Origin: Leptospiraceae bacterium | Lineage (GTDB): Bacteria > Spirochaetota > Leptospiria > Leptospirales > Leptospiraceae | NCBI GenBank assembly: GCA_017996175.1 | Contig: JAGOHK010000004.1 | Coordinates: 1-64,000 of the forward strand | Length of the DNA: 64,000 nucleotides | Direction: 5' to 3' | Shown: positions 1,177-63,984 of the stretch, piece by piece | Numbering within the stretch: the stretch's first letter is position 1 | Layout of the letters: every line of letters begins with the position of its first letter | Translations under genes and position numbers: made by a program | The notes under the pieces: generated by a model | The model's input: only the letters and a program-made list of their open reading frames with translations | What the model was told of the DNA's origin: nothing | Databases searched by the model: none

Positions 1177-1819
1177 TTAAGCCTATTGAGGAAGGATATC
1201 TAACATTTACCTTTGAAGAAAATACTTGGATGTTTGCAAAAAAATATGACGAACTCACTGAGTATGAAAATATGAATAAAGCACTTGATTTGGGATTAAC
1301 GGATAAAGAAGAAAAAGTGAAAAATTCTGGTATCGATATTTTAGCTTTAGATAAAAATAAAAAACTATACTTAATCGAAATAAAAGACCCACGATTAGAC
1401 GAGAGCGAGAATGCCGACCGAAAATGGGATGTTGAAGTTGCAAAAAAATTAAAGACACAGTAAGTGGTATCGTTGGATTTTCCAATACATCGGATAAATT
1501 AAAAAAAGAATTTAGAAATTCTCTTAGTTGTTTTCTTAGTAATAACTTTGCAGTTATTTTTTGGTTAGAATCAAGTAGAATATCCGAAAAGGAAAAGAGT
1601 TATGCAATAAGAAGAGATCGAAATTTTGTAGGTTTCAGTTCTTGGCAAAAAAACCTTCAAAAGAGATTAAAGTGGCTAACAACTAATATTTCACTTGCAA
1701 ACGCTGAAACTTATCACAACGATTTTATAGGCTTAAAAGTAGAAGATAAATGGAGAAAAGGTGTCAATAAACACGAGGTTCACAAACCGCGACCTAAAAA
1801 ACGTGACAAAAATAATTAA
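1173..1819 (+). pseudogene. PD-(D/E)XK nuclease-like partner of the ATPase, frameshifted
   Basis: The reading frame from the ATG at 1173 stops at 1463 after 96 residues. The next frame is open without interruption to a TAA at 1817-1819. One extra A in the run of seven A at 1442-1448 would join them into one protein of 215 residues, with the sequence crossing the junction as VAKKIKDTVSGIVGF. The intact N-terminal half carries GIDILALD (D55) followed by LYLIEIKD (E69, K71), which is the D...ExK pattern of PD-(D/E)XK nucleases. The C-terminal half is basic. It overlaps the upstream ATPase gene by 4 bases. The frameshift could be a real mutation, programmed slippage or a homopolymer sequencing error; the sequence alone cannot separate these. 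Confidence 0.7.
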
Positions 1820-1839
1820 GCAAAGCAACTAAGAAAGAA

Positions 1840-2283
1840 ATGCCAGAGAATAATAGTACTATCGATATTAATGAGGTAATGAAGCATTATCTCCTGTGTG
1901 CCATTTGGACGGAAGAAGAACAAATGTCTGAAATGGAAGAAAAAGAAATTGCGGATTTCTATGGTGAGTCAGAAGAAATTACAAAGTTAGTTCCAAGAAA
2001 TGAAATGAATATAGAAAATTTTTCTGATGATTCTAAGATTAAAGCATTCGAAGATATTAGAAAATTCTTATCAATTGATGGCGTGCAAGAAGCCATTGAA
2101 AAACAAAATATACCAAATGATATGCTTGGTCATGACTTATGGCTAACAAGAAATAGCCACGGAGCGGGGTTTTGGGATAGAGGTTATGATAAGAAAATTT
2201 CTAATTTATTAACCAATGCCGCTTTAAGTTTGGGTCGGTGTGAAGTGGAAGCGGGTGATGAGGGTTGGCTTCACTTGCGTTGA
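1840..2283 (+). CDS. Conserved phage/plasmid-type hypothetical protein
   Basis: This acidic protein of 147 residues has no enzymatic motif I can name. Its C-terminal half has the block HDLWLTRNSHGAGFWDRG, which I recognise from small uncharacterised proteins that are common on phages and plasmids; they typically end in a short glycine- and aspartate-containing tail as here. It lies 20 bases after the frameshifted nuclease-like gene and 60 bases before hsdM, so it may be carried with the restriction locus. It has no signal peptide or membrane segment. The function is unknown. Confidence 0.6.
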   Translation: MPENNSTIDINEVMKHYLLCAIWTEEEQMSEMEEKEIADFYGESEEITKLVPRNEMNIENFSDDSKIKAFEDIRKFLSIDGVQEAIEKQNIPNDMLGHDLWLTRNSHGAGFWDRGYDKKISNLLTNAALSLGRCEVEAGDEGWLHLR

Positions 2284-2343
2284 TGAGATATATATAATAC
2301 ACTTACAACGAATAAATTCCGATAAGATTATAAAGGATAAGTT

Positions 2344-3810
2344 ATGCTCACTGGTGAAATTAAATCACAGATTGATAAAGTTTGGGAAGCGTTTTGGACG
2401 GGCGGTTTGTCTAATCCTCTGACTGTGATTGAGCAGATGACTTATCTTTTGTTTTTGCGTAGGCTTGATGAATTACAAACTCTGAAAGAGAAAAAAGCGG
2501 CTACTCTTAAAAAGCCGATAGAAGAGCCGATTTACAAAACCTCCGAAACCAATTTGCGTTGGAGTCATTTTAAAAATACAGATCCCGAAGTCATGTTCGA
2601 GTTGTTTCGAAAGAAAGATGGAATTTTTGATTTTCTAAAAAATGTAGGGAGTAAAGATTCTACTTTTTCCAAGTTCATGAAAGGCGCTACGTTTATGATT
2701 CCGACTCCGAGGCTTCTTGCTCAAGTTGTAGAAATGCTTTCCAATCTAGACATGAGCGACAGGGACACAAAAGGGGATGTTTACGAGTATCTCCTTGGAA
2801 AAATTGCGTCAGCCGGAAGAAACGGTCAGTTTAGAACTCCACGGCATATCATTAGCCTGATGGTGGAATTAGTCAAACCTACAATCGAGGACATCATCTG
2901 TGATCCTGCTTCTGGAACGTCTGGCTTTCTAGTGGCTAGTAGTGAGTATGTGCGAAGGAATTTTGAAAACGATTTGTATGACAAAAAACACAAATTGCAT
3001 TTCCAAGAGAAGATGTTTATGGGTATGGAATTTGACCCTACGATGATTCGTATCGGTGCTATGAACCTAATCTTGCACGGTATCGAAAATCCTCATCTCA
3101 TCGACGTGGACGCACTCAGTGAGGCTAATGCCAATTTTACCGAAGACGCAACTCTCATTCTTGCAAATCCTCCTTTCAAAGGAAGTCTCGACCGTGGTGC
3201 TGTGGACAAAAAAGTTTTAAAGATTGTAGACAGCACTAAGACTGAGCTTTTATTCATTGCCCTAATTCTGCGTGGTTTGAAGTTAGGCGGTAGAGCCGCT
3301 GTGATTGTGCCCGATGGTGTATTGTTCGGTAGTAGCAACGCCCATTTACAAATCCGAAAAGAATTAATCGACAATCAAAAACTCCAAGCCGTAATCAGTA
3401 TGCCAAGCGGTGTATTCAAACCCTACGCCGGCGTGAGCACTGCCATTATCCTCTTCACCAAAACCAATAGCGGAGGAACCGACCACGTTTGGTTCTACGA
3501 TATGTAGTCTGACGGTTTCAGCCTAGACGACAAACGCCAACCTCTCGACACAAGCGACATCCCCGATATTCAAAAACGTTTCCAACATCTAAAAGCCGAA
3601 TCCAAACGGTCTAGGACAGACCAAAGTTTCCTTGTTCCAAAATCCGAAATTGTCTCAAACAAATACGACCTTAGCATCAACCGCTACAAAGAAATCGAAC
3701 ACGAGGAAAAATCTTATTCGTCGCCGTCCCACTTAATCGAACAAATCGAATCCATCGACAAAGAACGATTAGCCTTGCTGAAACAATTGAAAGGGTTGTT
3801 GAAGAAATGA
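2344..3810 (+). pseudogene. hsdM: Type I restriction-modification methyltransferase subunit, interrupted by an amber codon
   Basis: This would be the N6-adenine methyltransferase (M) subunit of a type I restriction-modification system. The N-terminal HsdM domain covers about residues 1-130. The AdoMet motif DPASGTSGF lies near residue 187 and the catalytic NPPF motif near residue 274. An AAGGA ribosome site precedes the ATG. An in-frame TAG at 3505-3507 sits inside the conserved VWFYDM-x-SDGFSLDD block. The frame then stays open for about 100 more codons to a TGA at 3808-3810, giving 488 residues in all, the normal length for HsdM. A single CAG or GAG to TAG change would explain it. Unless the stop is suppressed, the C-terminal region that contacts HsdS is lost and the system may be inactive. 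Confidence 0.9.
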
Positions 3811-10952: not shown

Positions 10953-13900
10953 ATGAGTAATTTTACTTTCCTAAAACCAAATTGGACAGCACTTTCAGAA
11001 GATCCTATTGAAGCAGAAAAAAATATTTTTCGTGCGCCGATGTATACGGCTATGCTTTGCAGGAAGAACCTAGAAGATTGGGTAAGATTTATTTTTGAGC
11101 ATGATGCTGATTTGGAACTTCCTTATGATGACTCTCTTAGTTCCCTATTACATGATGAAAAATTTAAAACGTTAGTCGGGAGAGATAGATTTACTCAATT
11201 AAATCTTATTCGCAAATTAGGAAACACCGCCGTTCATACGAAGGCAAAGATCCAGACAAATGAGGCACTGTATGTAGTAAAACTCCTACATGGATTTACT
11301 GCCTGGGTAGTTCGGGTCTATAGCCAAAAGAAGCCAGAAATTCCAGCGTTTGAAGAGTCGTTAATTCCAAGAGAAACAGGAAAGGATAAAACAAAAGAAG
11401 AACTAAAAAATCTTGAACTAAAATTTCACGAGCAACAGAGTGAATTAAAAAAAGTTAAGGAAGAATTAGAAAAATACAAAGCGGCTAAGGAAAGTTATCT
11501 ACCACTCTCCGAGCCAGTCGTAAAAGATATAACAGAAGCTGAAACTAGAAAGATTTACATTGATACACTTCTCCGAGAAGCAGGTTGGGAACCATACGAG
11601 AAAAATGTTCGAGAATATCCGATTAAAAATTGTATTCCGCAGGCAGACAAATCGCTTGGCGACGGTTTTGCTGACTACGTTCTCTGGGGGGATAATGGCA
11701 AACCGCTAGCTGTCGTGGAAGCCAAACGAACTAAAAAAGACAAAGACACAGGAAGAGAACAAGCTAGACTCTACGCAAATGGATTAGAAAGAGATTTTGG
11801 ACAACGCCCGATAGTATTTTATTCAAACGGCTATGAGACCGGTATATGGGATGACACGCATTATCCGCCACGTAATGTATTTGGATTTTACACGAAAGAT
11901 GAGCTAGAGTTACTCATCCAGAGAAGAACTTCTAAAAAGTCACTTGCTAGTGAAACAATCAACTTAGCAATCACCGAAAGACCATACCAACAAGAAGCAA
12001 TCCGTCGAGTATCCGAAGCATTAGAACGAAAACAAAGAGATGCACTCCTCATCATGGCAACTGGAACAGGCAAAACAAGAGTTGCCGCTTCTATCGTTGA
12101 TTTTTTGAGCAAAGCTAATTGGGCAAAAAGAGTTTTATTTCTTGCGGATAGAATTCCACTCGTCGAGCAAGCAAAGAAAAGTTTTAATGATTGTCTACCG
12201 AATTTGCCAGGAGTAAATTTGGTTGAAGAAAAAGAAGATGATAGTAGTCGAATTGTATTTTCCACCTATCAAACCTTAATCAATCTAATTGATGGTGAAA
12301 CCGATGGAGACAATCGTTTGTATGGTGTAGGTCATTTTGATGTAATTATATTCGATGAGATTCATCGCTCCGTTTACAATCGTTATAAAGCTATTTTTAA
12401 ATATTTTGATGGAATTAGAATTGGACTCACCGCAACCCCTAAAACGGAAACAAGTAAGGATACGTATGAACTGTTTGGAATGGAAGCGAATAATCCAACG
12501 TTTGCGTATGAATTAGACGAGGCGGTGCGAGATGGTTTCTTGGTTCCACCTGTTGCGATATCCGTGCCTACAAAGTTTCATCGAGAAGGAATTAAATACT
12601 CCGAGTTAAGCGAAGAGGAAAAAGCTGAATACGAAGAAAAATTTTCTGATCCAATCACAGAGGAATTGGTAAAACAAGAAATAGAATCAGATGCACTCAA
12701 TGATTGGTTGTTTAATGCAAATACAGTAGACCAAATTCTATCTCATATTATGCAAAATGGAATCAAAGTAGAAGGTGGAGATAAACTTGCAAAGACAATG
12801 ATATTTGCTCGTTCCCACAGTCATGCTAAGTTTATTGAAGATAGATTCAACAAGCAATTCAAACAATACAGAGGAGAATTCTTACGAGTAATCGACTACC
12901 AAGAAGAACAAAGAAAATCTTTACTAGAATCTTTTAAGGATAACGAACGTTTTCCGCAAATTGCAGTTTCGGTAGATATGCTAGATACCGGAATAGATGT
13001 CCCAGAAGTTTCTAACTTAGTTTTCTACAAACCAGTAAAGAGTCTTACAAAATTCTGGCAGATGGTCGGACGCGGGACGAGACTTTGTAAAAACCTACTT
13101 GGTATCGGGCAACACAAAAAAGAATTTCTCATCTTTGACTTTTGCGAGAACTTTGAGTTTTTTGCCGTTAACCCCAAAGGCATTAAGACCAATATGATAA
13201 AGTCATTAAGCCAACGACTTTTTGAATTAAGATTGAGGCTTGCCGTTATTCTCTCCAAAGAAGAAAGTCCTGAATTAAAAAAATATTCAGAACAAATCTT
13301 AACCCGACTTGTAGAACAAACACAATCACTCGATTTACAGAGTTTTATAGTTAGGCAAAATCTACAAGTTGTAGAAAAGTATAGAGATATACAAGCATGG
13401 AATGACTTGAGCGACTTAGACATAAAAGAAATCTTCGATAATATCGCGCCTATCGTTCCAGAAAAAGATACAGATGAAAAAACAAAACGATTTGATACGA
13501 TTCTATTTGATCTACAGATACGAACACAGATTGGTGGAAAATCCATTGATGACTTAGTAAAAAGAGTCAAGTCTGTAGCAGGTCAATTAAGCAAAAAAGG
13601 AAACCTCCCAAAAGTTGCCGAGAAAATGGATATTATCCGCGAAATCCAAGAAGATAGTTTTTGGAAAACTGCGGAAATTCCTTCTCTAGAAAAAATACGA
13701 ATTGAACTTAGGGATTTAGCCAAGTTCCTAGATACCGAGTCTACTCCTATCATTTATACTAATTTTGAAGATGAAATAGGATATGGGACGATAAATGATT
13801 TATCCTTTAATTTGAATGATCTAGATACCTACAAACGAAAAGTAGAAAGGTACCTCAAAGAAAATAATAATCATACAACTATTTATAAAATCAGAAATAA

Positions 13901-14291
13901 TCTACAAATTACACAAACAGATATTAAAGAATTAGAGCGTATGCTTTTTGATCAAGGGAGTCTAGGATCGAAGAAACAGTTTGTAGAGGCTTACGGCGAA
14001 CAACCGCTTGGTAAGTTTATCAGAAGTATAGTTGGGCTCGACGCAAAAGTTGCCAAAGAACTATTTGGAAAAATCCTTCTGAACCAAACTCTAAATGCAA
14101 GGCAGATTAAATTTATGGACACCATCATCAACTACTTGATTGTCAAAGGGATTATCGACCCAGCTATGTTATTTGAACCACCTTTTACTGATATCAGTTC
14201 GAACGGAATCAGTGATGTATTTGATGACACGACAGCTGATAAAATTATTTCATTGATTGAGGAAATAAACAAGAAAGCAGATGCGGCGTAG
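10953..14291 (+). CDS. hsdR: Type I restriction-modification restriction subunit (EcoEI-like)
   Basis: This is the DNA-translocating endonuclease subunit, 1,112 residues and apparently intact. A DUF4145-like N-terminal domain (residues 20-120) and a short charged coiled coil come first. The PD-(D/E)XK nuclease follows, with GDGFADYVLW and LAVVEAKR near residues 236-258. The helicase motor has Walker A ATGTGKT near 369, FDEIH near 467, the TATPK motif near 490 and QMVGRGTRL near 700. An EcoEI-type C-terminal domain finishes the protein. A ribosome site (AAAGAG) precedes the ATG. With hsdM interrupted, the modification status of the host must be checked, since an active HsdR without methylation would be toxic; HsdR does not cleave without HsdM. 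Confidence 0.95.
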   Translation: MSNFTFLKPNWTALSEDPIEAEKNIFRAPMYTAMLCRKNLEDWVRFIFEHDADLELPYDDSLSSLLHDEKFKTLVGRDRFTQLNLIRKLGNTAVHTKAKIQTNEALYVVKLLHGFTAWVVRVYSQKKPEIPAFEESLIPRETGKDKTKEELKNLELKFHEQQSELKKVKEELEKYKAAKESYLPLSEPVVKDITEAETRKIYIDTLLREAGWEPYEKNVREYPIKNCIPQADKSLGDGFADYVLWGDNGKPLAVVEAKRTKKDKDTGREQARLYANGLERDFGQRPIVFYSNGYETGIWDDTHYPPRNVFGFYTKDELELLIQRRTSKKSLASETINLAITERPYQQEAIRRVSEALERKQRDALLIMATGTGKTRVAASIVDFLSKANWAKRVLFLADRIPLVEQAKKSFNDCLPNLPGVNLVEEKEDDSSRIVFSTYQTLINLIDGETDGDNRLYGVGHFDVIIFDEIHRSVYNRYKAIFKYFDGIRIGLTATPKTETSKDTYELFGMEANNPTFAYELDEAVRDGFLVPPVAISVPTKFHREGIKYSELSEEEKAEYEEKFSDPITEELVKQEIESDALNDWLFNANTVDQILSHIMQNGIKVEGGDKLAKTMIFARSHSHAKFIEDRFNKQFKQYRGEFLRVIDYQEEQRKSLLESFKDNERFPQIAVSVDMLDTGIDVPEVSNLVFYKPVKSLTKFWQMVGRGTRLCKNLLGIGQHKKEFLIFDFCENFEFFAVNPKGIKTNMIKSLSQRLFELRLRLAVILSKEESPELKKYSEQILTRLVEQTQSLDLQSFIVRQNLQVVEKYRDIQAWNDLSDLDIKEIFDNIAPIVPEKDTDEKTKRFDTILFDLQIRTQIGGKSIDDLVKRVKSVAGQLSKKGNLPKVAEKMDIIREIQEDSFWKTAEIPSLEKIRIELRDLAKFLDTESTPIIYTNFEDEIGYGTINDLSFNLNDLDTYKRKVERYLKENNNHTTIYKIRNNLQITQTDIKELERMLFDQGSLGSKKQFVEAYGEQPLGKFIRSIVGLDAKVAKELFGKILLNQTLNARQIKFMDTIINYLIVKGIIDPAMLFEPPFTDISSNGISDVFDDTTADKIISLIEEINKKADAA

Positions 14292-58987: not shown

Positions 58988-59341
58988 TTAAGGATTTCGT
59001 TCATACAAAATTTTGCCCTTATTCAAAGCTTCTCTGATGAGAGGATCACCAAGTCGAAATCTTTTTTCGGTATCGTCTGGAGTTCGTGCAAGTATATCAA
59101 TTGGAAAAGTGACATTCAAACTTTGGTAAATTTCAAGGGATTTGTAAAAATTCTTACCAGTAAAAGGTAAAATTACTAAAAGATCTAAATCTGAATTTGA
59201 AGAAGGATTCCCATAAGCATAAGAACCAAAGAGTACAATTTTATCAGGGAAAAATTTCTCTGTAATTTCTTGGCTTACTCGACTAATCTCTTCGTTTGTA
59301 ATCATACTAGTCAATCGTGGTTTGGTTTTAGTAAATGTCAA
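58988..59341 (-). CDS. Nucleotidyltransferase-domain protein
   Basis: This small nucleotidyltransferase of the MNT/Pol-beta type has KIVLFGSYAYGNPSSNSDLD near residues 34-53, with the GS motif and D-x-D. DILARTPDDTEKRF follows. The usual HEPN partner is not next to it. The ATG at 59305 (MITNEEIS) is an alternative start. It lies 20 bases upstream of the 2H phosphoesterase gene on the same strand and may be in its operon. Confidence 0.85.
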   Translation of the reverse strand: MTFTKTKPRLTSMITNEEISRVSQEITEKFFPDKIVLFGSYAYGNPSSNSDLDLLVILPFTGKNFYKSLEIYQSLNVTFPIDILARTPDDTEKRFRLGDPLIREALNKGKILYERNP

Positions 59342-59656: not shown

Positions 59657-60379
59657 CTACAATTTCTCTCTTTTTCGCTCTCGTTCGTTTGCGGCTAATA
59701 GTTGTTTAAATTTAGGACTCATTCCAGTAATGGTTTGATTTGTAAACAGGAGTGTATCTGACTTTATTTCTTTACTTTTGTAACTGAGATTATATCTGAT
59801 TTCTTCCTCGTTATTTTTAATAAAATAATCTAGAGGGACTTTGAAACTAGAATCTACAATTAGAGGTTTATTATCATTTAACGTTATAGAATAAAATTCG
59901 TTATTGAATAAATTAGGCTTAAATTCACCAAACTCGGCTTTAGTAATTTCTGTTTCAGTAAATTTTCTCTTTTCACCGAGAGAAGATTTTTCTGAGTAAT
60001 AATAATATATGGTAAATGGAATATTTATGCAAAGAGTATAAAAACAACCGAATGAAAGGAAAAATATATTTGGCATACTCCAATAATTAGAACCACCTTT
60101 CGCTTCCAAGTTTCCATCTTTATCATAAACAAAACTCTTTACTTCTTTCTTTGCAACTTGAAATTTTGTTTGTTCTTTTTTGTATAACTTTCCAACCAAA
60201 TCGTTTTCAGAAACTTCAAATCGAACATCTATATCTGAGGCTTCCGGCGCATAATCAAAAGTTTTCTCTGTTAGCTTTCTATTTATTTCGATAGTCTCCA
60301 ATTTTGTAGCGGGAGAGAGACAATTTAGAAAAAGAGAAATTAGAAATAACGAAATGAGTTTAATAGTAGATAGCCGCAT
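59657..60379 (-). CDS. Hypothetical lipoprotein, probably frameshifted at its C-terminus
   Basis: The N-terminus LISLFLISLFLNC is a lipoprotein signal. The mature part has a hydrophobic stretch (FFLSFGCFYTLCINIPFTIY, near residues 106-125) and a charged C-terminus. The frame stops in TTGTAG, in the middle of a highly charged helix-like run (NERERKREKL). Inserting one base would continue the run into the cysteine-rich fragment at 59349-59579. An equivalent domain layout is common among spirochaete lipoproteins. Function unknown. Confidence 0.65.
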   Translation of the reverse strand: MRLSTIKLISLFLISLFLNCLSPATKLETIEINRKLTEKTFDYAPEASDIDVRFEVSENDLVGKLYKKEQTKFQVAKKEVKSFVYDKDGNLEAKGGSNYWSMPNIFFLSFGCFYTLCINIPFTIYYYYSEKSSLGEKRKFTETEITKAEFGEFKPNLFNNEFYSITLNDNKPLIVDSSFKVPLDYFIKNNEEEIRYNLSYKSKEIKSDTLLFTNQTITGMSPKFKQLLAANERERKREKL

Positions 60380-60557
60380 GATAGTTCCTGATAAATAATT
60401 TCTACCAGTTTACCACAATATGCCCCTTCATAGAGGCAAAAGATTTTCCTCTTGGGATGTTTTTTCAATAAATAAAAAATATCAATCTGTACTTTTTCAT
60501 CTAGACAATACCAGTAAAGTAAGGAAATTAGTGCTAAGGAGTGATTTCAGATTAATC

Positions 60558-61433
60558 ATGAATAAATTAGAATATATCAGTAAACAGTTTCAAAAAGCCG
60601 AAACCAAAAAATACGAACACTATGTTATTACTAGAATATGGCATTTATTAAATGATTCTGATATCAAGATAGTCGCCCAGCAGTATGTTTCAAGACCCAA
60701 TGGAAAAGCTCTAACAGATCTTTATTTTCCACAACTTAAAATTCATATTGAAATAGATGAACCGTTCCACAAAAAACAAAAAACTGAAGATAAAATTAGA
60801 GAAATGGATATAGTAAACGCAACTGGGCATGAAGTAATTAGAATTAATGTGACTGAAAAAAGTCTTGAAAACATAAATCTGGAAATAGATAACATTGTTG
60901 AACAATTAAATAAAAAAAAATCCATTATCACTTTTCAAGCATGGAATATCGAACGGGAGCAAGAACCATTAACCTATGTCAAAAAAGGATTTATTGATTT
61001 AACAGATGACTGCGCTTTTAAGACAATGGTTGATGCAGCTAATTGTTTCGGACATAAATATAAGCCAAAGGGAATATGGACAAGTTTAGCGAATCATCCG
61101 GTTGAAAAAAATAATATGATTTGGTTTCCTAAACTTTATAAAAATGAAAAATGGAATAATGCTATCTCTGATGATGAAAAAGTTATTACGGAGAATTCTA
61201 CTATTAAAGCAAAAGGAAAAGATTATATAAGCAAATATTTAAAAGATGAGCGAAATTTAAGGATTGTTTTCGCCAGAGTAAAAAGCCCATTAGGTGATAT
61301 TATGTATAGATTTAAGGGTCAATATTTGAGAGATGATAAATTAAGTAATGAAGCTAAAGGTTTAATTTGGAAAAGAATAAGCGATAGAGTACAAACTTAC
61401 CCTAATAGCGTAGAGTCAAAAGGCAAAATATAA
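60558..61433 (+). CDS. PvuRts1I/AbaSI-like modification-dependent endonuclease (type IV)
   Basis: Starting at the ATG at 60558, this 291-residue protein matches the PvuRts1I/AbaSI family. That family cuts DNA bearing 5-hydroxymethylcytosine (and its glucosylated form) on phage genomes. The N-terminal Vsr-like nuclease domain reads KKYEHYVITRIWHLL, TDLYFPQLKIHIEIDEPFHK (D54, E65, D67, E68, H71) and KIREMDIVNATG. The C-terminal part with FKTMVDAANCFGHKYK and MIWFPKLYKNEKW corresponds to the SRA-like base-flipping domain. An AAGGAG lies 17 bases before the ATG. The upstream ATG at 60420 lacks homology. It stands alone; there is no methylase beside it, as expected for a type IV enzyme. Confidence 0.8.
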   Translation: MNKLEYISKQFQKAETKKYEHYVITRIWHLLNDSDIKIVAQQYVSRPNGKALTDLYFPQLKIHIEIDEPFHKKQKTEDKIREMDIVNATGHEVIRINVTEKSLENINLEIDNIVEQLNKKKSIITFQAWNIEREQEPLTYVKKGFIDLTDDCAFKTMVDAANCFGHKYKPKGIWTSLANHPVEKNNMIWFPKLYKNEKWNNAISDDEKVITENSTIKAKGKDYISKYLKDERNLRIVFARVKSPLGDIMYRFKGQYLRDDKLSNEAKGLIWKRISDRVQTYPNSVESKGKI

Positions 61434-61862
61434 AAAGTGAGAAGGATTAGAAAATAATTTTTTATCACTTCTCAAAATTAATTTTATTGATTCTCACTGA
61501 AATTTATTTAAATATCCTAAGAGAAAATAGTTCATTAATTGCATTCAATTAAAAGTCTAAAAAACAAAATATAATTTTTCTTGGTTTACTCTCCCCAAAA
61601 AAAACCAACAGGAAAATCTCCTGTCGCTATGGTATAGCTATGATACAATTTAAAAAATTGGTATAGAGGTAAATTACGCTTTTCCTTCTAGATCCGAAGC
61701 GGCTAATTTGCATCTCACTTATCTACCTTCCTGTCCCAAAATTTTACTTAAAGTATTCCTTCTTGCGGCTATTTGGCTGTATATCTCTAAAGCCTACTCG
61801 ATCACGAGTAAAATTTTCTTTTTCTATTTTTTCTAAATAGAAAATAAAATAACATTTTTTCA
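61434..61862 (+). other. Non-coding gap containing repeat copy a
   Basis: No credible gene is seen in these ~430 bases. The segment 61590-61652 (CTCTCCCCAAAA...CCAACAGGAAAATCTCCTGT CGCTAT) has a hairpin CAGGA-AAATC-TCCTG and a diverged copy at 62234-62302. The rest is AT-rich. A reverse-strand stretch near 61700-61800 reads EIYSQIAARRNTLSKILGQE with stops, a possible coding relic. Confidence 0.5.
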
Positions 61863-62233: not shown

Positions 62234-62302
62234 CTCTCCTCAAAAATTCCCAAGAGGAAAAACTTCTGCCGCTATAAGAGAGGAATAATGATATAATTTT
62301 CC
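62234..62302 (+). repeat. Diverged hairpin repeat, copy b
   Basis: CTCTCCTCAAAAATTCCCAA then GAGGAAAAACTTCTGCCGCTAT parallels the sequence at 61590-61652. The hairpin AGAGG-AAAAA-CTTCT keeps its pairing while its bases differ from the CAGGA/TCCTG hairpin of copy a. It lies 20 bases before the lipoprotein gene and could act on its mRNA. Confidence 0.45.
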
Positions 62303-62323: not shown

Positions 62324-62923
62324 ATGATTCGGAATCAATTTAAGAAATTACTATTTATTGGAATAGTTTGGATAATAGCGATAAACTGCAAAGGTGGAAA
62401 TAATAAAAATTCATGTAGAGAATTTCATGATGAAGTAATGAAGCTCTACAATGAAAATAAAATTAAAGAGAAGATTACGAAAGATACTCTTCAAACTGTA
62501 ACTAAAGACCAACCATTCTATTCTGTATTTGCAAATGACGATCCAGGAATATTATGTTATGTAGAAATTAAAGCAGATCATATTGGAGAAGGTTTTTCAA
62601 AAGCAAATTTAGAGTATAATAATAAAATGGAAGAGCCAGCGATAAAGGCAGTAAATGAGAAATATGGGATTACTATTGTTCCTTTAACAACAATTCTTAA
62701 TGCTGATTATTATTTTAAGGTTTATGAAAGTGAAAAATTTGCACGAGACGCGTTTGAAAGATTGAACAATAGAACTAGGAGAGAAACAAAACTTCCTTCC
62801 TATAAAGTTTTTCATAATAAAAATACAATTTTCTATTACGATGATGTTTACGAAGAATTACCTATTCCTCAAATAAAGGAAGTTGTTGATCTAGGAAAGA
62901 AGTATACAGGAGTGAAAGACTAG
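62324..62923 (+). CDS. Hypothetical lipoprotein of 199 residues
   Basis: A strong AAGGAG ribosome site precedes the ATG. The N-terminal FKKLLFIGIVWIIAINCKGG is a lipoprotein signal with the cysteine at residue 22. The mature part is soluble with no motif I recognise. A hairpin with a 9-bp stem follows at 62936. Small lipoproteins of this layout are common in Leptospira. Function unknown. Confidence 0.65.
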   Translation: MIRNQFKKLLFIGIVWIIAINCKGGNNKNSCREFHDEVMKLYNENKIKEKITKDTLQTVTKDQPFYSVFANDDPGILCYVEIKADHIGEGFSKANLEYNNKMEEPAIKAVNEKYGITIVPLTTILNADYYFKVYESEKFARDAFERLNNRTRRETKLPSYKVFHNKNTIFYYDDVYEELPIPQIKEVVDLGKKYTGVKD

Positions 62924-63379: not shown

Positions 63380-63589
63380 TTACACCACCGATGCAATTTC
63401 AAACTGCAAAGACTTAAAGTTTATCAACTTCGATCTATTTGATAAACCTAATAACTCAATGCCGACGATTTGACCTTCTTTGTTAAAATCTAAAACAACG
63501 CCAGAAGTTATTTCTTCAGACTCAACAATTTCTGAATCATCTAAGCGTAGATACAATGCGCCTGCTTTTTCATCTATTTTAAGTTTCAT
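63380..63589 (-). CDS. DUF2283 family protein
   Basis: This 69-residue protein of the DUF2283 family starts MKLKIDEKAGALYLRLDDSE, followed by VVLDFNKEGQIVGIELLG. DUF2283 proteins are short beta-rich proteins that often pair with small TA-like genes. It overlaps the 3' end of the HEPN gene by 4 bases, so the two are co-translated. They could form a TA-like unit. The biochemistry of the family is not known. Confidence 0.88.
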   Translation of the reverse strand: MKLKIDEKAGALYLRLDDSEIVESEEITSGVVLDFNKEGQIVGIELLGLSNRSKLINFKSLQFEIASVV

Positions 63590-63984
63590 AAATTTCCTTC
63601 TTCTAAAAGAAGTTTAATAGAATAAATATTTCTTCTTGCAACACTGATAGAAAAATTAGCATCATTCTCTGTTGGCGGCATAGTATCTCCAGGGTATCTA
63701 GCTTCAACAGCCCACTCAGAAAGTTCAGAAAGTCCTTCTAAATTTAATTTATCTTTTATATCGCTAGGAAGCTTGGCGTATAACGCTTCTAAATCATGAA
63801 TTTTCGCAAAAGACATATTCAGAAATACGAATATTGCTTTTAAAGCTTTTTCAACTGATTGTTGACTCAAATAGCATACATTTCTAGGAAATGTATTTTC
63901 ACTGGATAACAAGGTTTCTGCGCTTTGTAAATCTTCTTCTGAATACAAAATCCACTGCTTCCACTCACTTGATTTTTCTATCAT
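63586..63984 (-). CDS. HEPN-domain protein
   Basis: This 132-residue HEPN protein has SEEDLQSAETLLSS, FPRNVCYLSQQSVEKALKAI and KIHDLEALYAKL, the helical core of HEPN toxins that pair with MNT nucleotidyltransferases. The RNase motif of active HEPN toxins (R-x4-6-H) is not clearly present. The DUF2283 gene overlaps its 3' end. Its upstream region is cut by the window edge, so an MNT partner may lie outside the window. Confidence 0.85.
   Translation of the reverse strand: MIEKSSEWKQWILYSEEDLQSAETLLSSENTFPRNVCYLSQQSVEKALKAIFVFLNMSFAKIHDLEALYAKLPSDIKDKLNLEGLSELSEWAVEARYPGDTMPPTENDANFSISVARRNIYSIKLLLEEGNL

Follow-up and report, generated by a model that had tools for sequence, protein, structure and literature searches.

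The window, meaning the whole 64,000-nucleotide stretch of DNA that was analysed, contains a gene for a modification-dependent endonuclease of the PvuRts1I/AbaSI family. The gene and its parts are the following:

60536..60541, plus strand: possible ribosome-binding site AAGGAG, proposed from the sequence
60558..61433, plus strand: PvuRts1I/AbaSI-family modification-dependent endonuclease, 291 aa (PF21598 and PF18491, PADLOC mREase_II, PDB matches to AbaSI and PvuRts1I)
60567..60905, plus strand: N-terminal PD-(D/E)XK (Vsr-like) nuclease domain, PF21598 (Pfam, alignment)
60972..61397, plus strand: C-terminal SRA-like domain, PF18491 (Pfam, alignment)

The frame is full-length and free of stops. 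An in-frame ATG upstream, at 60420, would give an alternative reading of 337 aa. The similarity to PvuRts1I and AbaSI starts at the 60558 ATG, which is aligned with M1 of PvuRts1I in the PDB search and the alignment, and 60558 is therefore the better start. The AAGGAG lies 16 nt upstream of this ATG, a slightly long spacing. Coordinates 60558-61433, proposed earlier from the letters of the DNA, thus hold, the open frame being intact and the homology beginning at the same ATG. The host had been taken for an apparent spirochaete. This is supported by FlaA, the periplasmic flagellar sheath protein (PF04620), which gave four matches over the cut-off in the genome and none in the 14 control genomes.

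Both domains of the family were recognised far over the Pfam cut-offs. PF21598, the PvuRts1I-like N-terminal nuclease, scored 125.1 bits (2.6e-36; cut-off 27 bits), and the SRA domain PF18491, located C-terminal to it, scored 137.6 bits (3.9e-40; cut-off 30.2 bits). The PADLOC model mREase_II spanned nearly the whole protein with 345.8 bits (4.6e-104). NCBIfam models gave no meaningful match to the endonuclease. When all PDB chains were searched by sequence, only AbaSI (1.8e-62) and two PvuRts1I entries (3.9e-38 and 1e-37) were found. The family call of the sequence-only reading is confirmed by these matches. The sequence blocks that it had quoted are likewise present in the alignment as YEHYVITRIWHLL, DLYFPQLKIHIEIDE and WFPKLY.

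The structure prediction proposed at the same time was made with ColabFold from seven sequences and reached middling confidence (mean pLDDT 70.9, pTM 0.59). Foldseek found five significant matches to this model in the PDB, all of them chains of AbaSI (best, E 3.4e-28, TM 0.68) or PvuRts1I (E 5.7e-23, TM 0.55). Below significance were the SRA-like recognition domain of LpnPI (E 0.018) and the Vsr-like catalytic domain of the homing endonuclease I-Bth0305I (E 0.17). The matches of the model agree with a two-domain reading, nuclease plus SRA; since its pLDDT is 70.9, the fold match is supportive and not independent proof. The anticipated architecture, a variant PD-(D/E)XK or Vsr-like nuclease followed by an SRA domain, is borne out by Pfam order, alignment and model together.

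In PvuRts1I, mutants or proposals from structure point to K17, E20, D57, L58, P61, E68, D70, E71 and H74 as nuclease residues and to W205, P207, Y210, W215, N217, E228 and R244 as the base pocket (PMC4157451, PMC4027163). An alignment of 15 relatives revealed that all of these are kept in the spirochaete protein, whose (D/E)XK motif is the 'EID' variant, as in PvuRts1I. In its own numbering the residues are:

PF21598 domain, nuclease residues (alignment): K17, E20, D54, P58, E65, D67, E68, H71
PF18491 domain, pocket residues (alignment): W189, P191, Y194, N196, W199, N201, E212, R235

The gene is sporadic and stands alone, which could suggest an inactive remnant or a role other than restriction. 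This is very improbable for a full-length frame without stops that retains all the catalytic and main pocket residues.

The listed positions that differ from PvuRts1I are R208 (lysine), A212 (asparagine) and Y237 (lysine), and these differences are conservative or AbaSI-like. The side chain of R208 is directed away in PvuRts1I, and the R208A mutant is only mildly affected (PMC4027163). Changing A212 to asparagine lowered the 5hmC selectivity of PvuRts1I (PMC4157451). The AbaSI-like protein, the Priestia protein and those of Bacteroidota have asparagine here as well, and the Y237 position varies across the family. The base pocket of the endonuclease holds nothing unusual for PvuRts1I/AbaSI enzymes.

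The closest relative found was an 'AbaSI family restriction endonuclease' from a Priestia megaterium plasmid (WP_252285607.1), with 48% identity over 97% of the length. This Bacillota plasmid protein has F at the Y210 position and is likewise without a partner gene. Identity was about 44% to the AbaSI-like Acinetobacter protein (L017), 40-42% to proteins of Bacteroidota MAGs and 32% to PvuRts1I in the alignment. AbaSI of Acinetobacter baumannii (PDB 4PAR, 4PBA, 4PBB) shares with the spirochaete enzyme the domain order, the catalytic and main pocket residues and the asparagine at the A212 position, whereas the spirochaete enzyme lacks some 17 residues that are inserted after DEGHH in AbaSI. PvuRts1I of the Proteus plasmid Rts1 (PDB 4OQ2, 4OKY) also shares the two domains and the catalytic and main pocket residues; apart from the asparagine for A212 and the lysine for R208, the spirochaete enzyme differs from it in a shorter loop ahead of the WFP block. 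Family members also occur in Paenibacillus, in Thioclava and in one Streptococcus phage record, and an IMG/VR search gave no close relative of the endonuclease. The earlier statement that known members come mainly from proteobacteria was too narrow, as Bacteroidota, plasmids of Bacillota and phage records also hold relatives, the Priestia plasmid protein being the closest.

Two other spirochaete proteins clustered in the tree with a Paenibacillus plasmid protein, away from the endonuclease, AbaSI and PvuRts1I (support 100/99, long branches). This second PvuRts1I-like clade comprises L002 (1036-1977), L003 (about 1504-2415, minus strand) and L020 (3001-3885). According to the alignment, its SRA pocket is altered, with Y210 replaced by alanine and a longer loop ahead of W215; in L002, W205 is additionally replaced by histidine and E228 by glutamine. 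The base preference of this clade may differ from that of the rest of the family.

A different target could also be imagined for the enzyme studied here. It would keep the fold and the family and would be adapted to some other modified base of spirochaete phages or plasmids, either 5mC or a cytosine that is decorated in another way. Identities of only 32-48% to relatives of known or annotated function would permit this, and asparagine at the A212 position is the very change that relaxed the selectivity of PvuRts1I (PMC4157451). However, the pocket is that of the AbaSI-like Acinetobacter protein except for lysine in place of R208, where replacement by alanine has only a mild effect in PvuRts1I (PMC4027163), and lysine in place of leucine at the poorly conserved Y237 position. 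Moreover, the clearly altered pockets sit in the separate clade and not in this endonuclease. A shifted base specificity is therefore improbable. As judged from its sequence, the endonuclease is an ordinary, apparently intact member of the PvuRts1I/AbaSI family of anti-phage enzymes, which cleave DNA with hydroxymethylated cytosine; the host is slightly unusual and the enzyme is not.

PF18491 was found in 3 of the 393 genomes of the phylum sample, and the endonuclease gene was absent from all three other genomes of the genus. Two neighbouring genes, at 59657-60379 and 62324-62923, were likewise absent from the seven other genomes of the family. The GC content at 60-62 kb is 29.0%, the lowest in the window. 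The sporadic gene, the separate clades, the neighbours absent from the family and the low GC fit an independent arrival of the gene, by horizontal transfer, in a variable region. PvuRts1I/AbaSI-type enzymes hereby gain a spirochaete host, and the family is scattered over at least four phyla, apparently via horizontal transfer.

The immediate neighbours are uncharacterised frames, a nucleotidyltransferase, a LigT-like protein, a WYL-like protein and a HEPN pair. No cognate methylase lies beside the endonuclease, and the restriction genes closest to it in the window, which are of type I, were seen about 46 kb away. The gene is thus a lone type IV gene, as had been expected. An HsdM (N6_Mtase) frame at 2344-3507 (plus strand) ends after 387 aa with an incomplete methylase domain and may be truncated or frameshifted; HsdR at 10953-14291 (plus strand) matches PADLOC REase_I with 632 bits. 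Closer to the endonuclease, an MNT-type nucleotidyltransferase adjoins a LigT-like phosphoesterase at 58988-59341 (minus strand), and a HEPN and DUF2283 pair is located at 63380-63984 (minus strand). Both are probably of the toxin-antitoxin type.

The best explanation, to which a probability of about 0.93 is given, is that the gene, gained horizontally, encodes a PvuRts1I/AbaSI-family restriction endonuclease of type IV (modification-dependent) that stands alone. The enzyme is most likely directed against phage DNA carrying 5hmC or glucosyl-5hmC. In the PvuRts1I/AbaSI relatives, the SRA domain binds the modified base and a dimeric nuclease cuts 11-13 nt away (PMC4157451, PMC4027163). By analogy with the characterised relatives, which suggest its substrate, cleavage geometry and anti-phage role, the SRA domain of the spirochaete enzyme would take up a flipped-out 5hmC or glucosyl-5hmC in its W/W/P pocket. 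The Mg-dependent dimer of N-terminal PD-(D/E)XK nucleases would span two modified cytosines, one on each strand and about 22 nt from each other, and would then cut at a distance of roughly 11-13 nt from the modified base. The host DNA, presumably without 5hmC, would be spared, and a companion methylase would for this reason be unneeded.

The presence of the gene had been taken to suggest phages with modified cytosine in this lineage. It is at most a lead that such phages meet this lineage. PF00303 (thymidylate synthase/dCMP hydroxymethylase), sought as the mark of an hmC-making provirus, was not found in the eight genomes of the family (the own genome and seven others), and a literature search gave no paper tying the PvuRts1I/AbaSI enzymes to Leptospira. 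It is doubtful that the endonuclease guards against an undescribed group of spirochaete phages whose cytosine is hydroxymethylated or decorated in some other way, and that its pocket has a shifted preference. The enzyme is also a further candidate for 5hmC mapping.

A degenerate 34-nt repeat (approximately ATAGMGRCARRAGWTTTTCCTSTTGGG) occurs between the genes around the endonuclease, at 60430-60463 (plus strand), 61597-61631 (minus strand) and 62242-62275 (minus strand). These repeats led to an integron cassette setting being considered. It was dropped because only one further copy of the repeat was found in the genome (C61:8659), no gene of the genome reached the cut-off of the integron integrase model, and the surroundings of the best integrase-like gene showed no attC-like array. 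A tyrosine recombinase (L043, 542-1639, contig 166) matches the integron-integrase model below the cut-off. An attC-like palindrome (TAACGTTGAGTTTGCGAA..TTCGCAAACCCAAC) follows a methylase-like gene in L033 (about 2790-2860; G000, contig 61).
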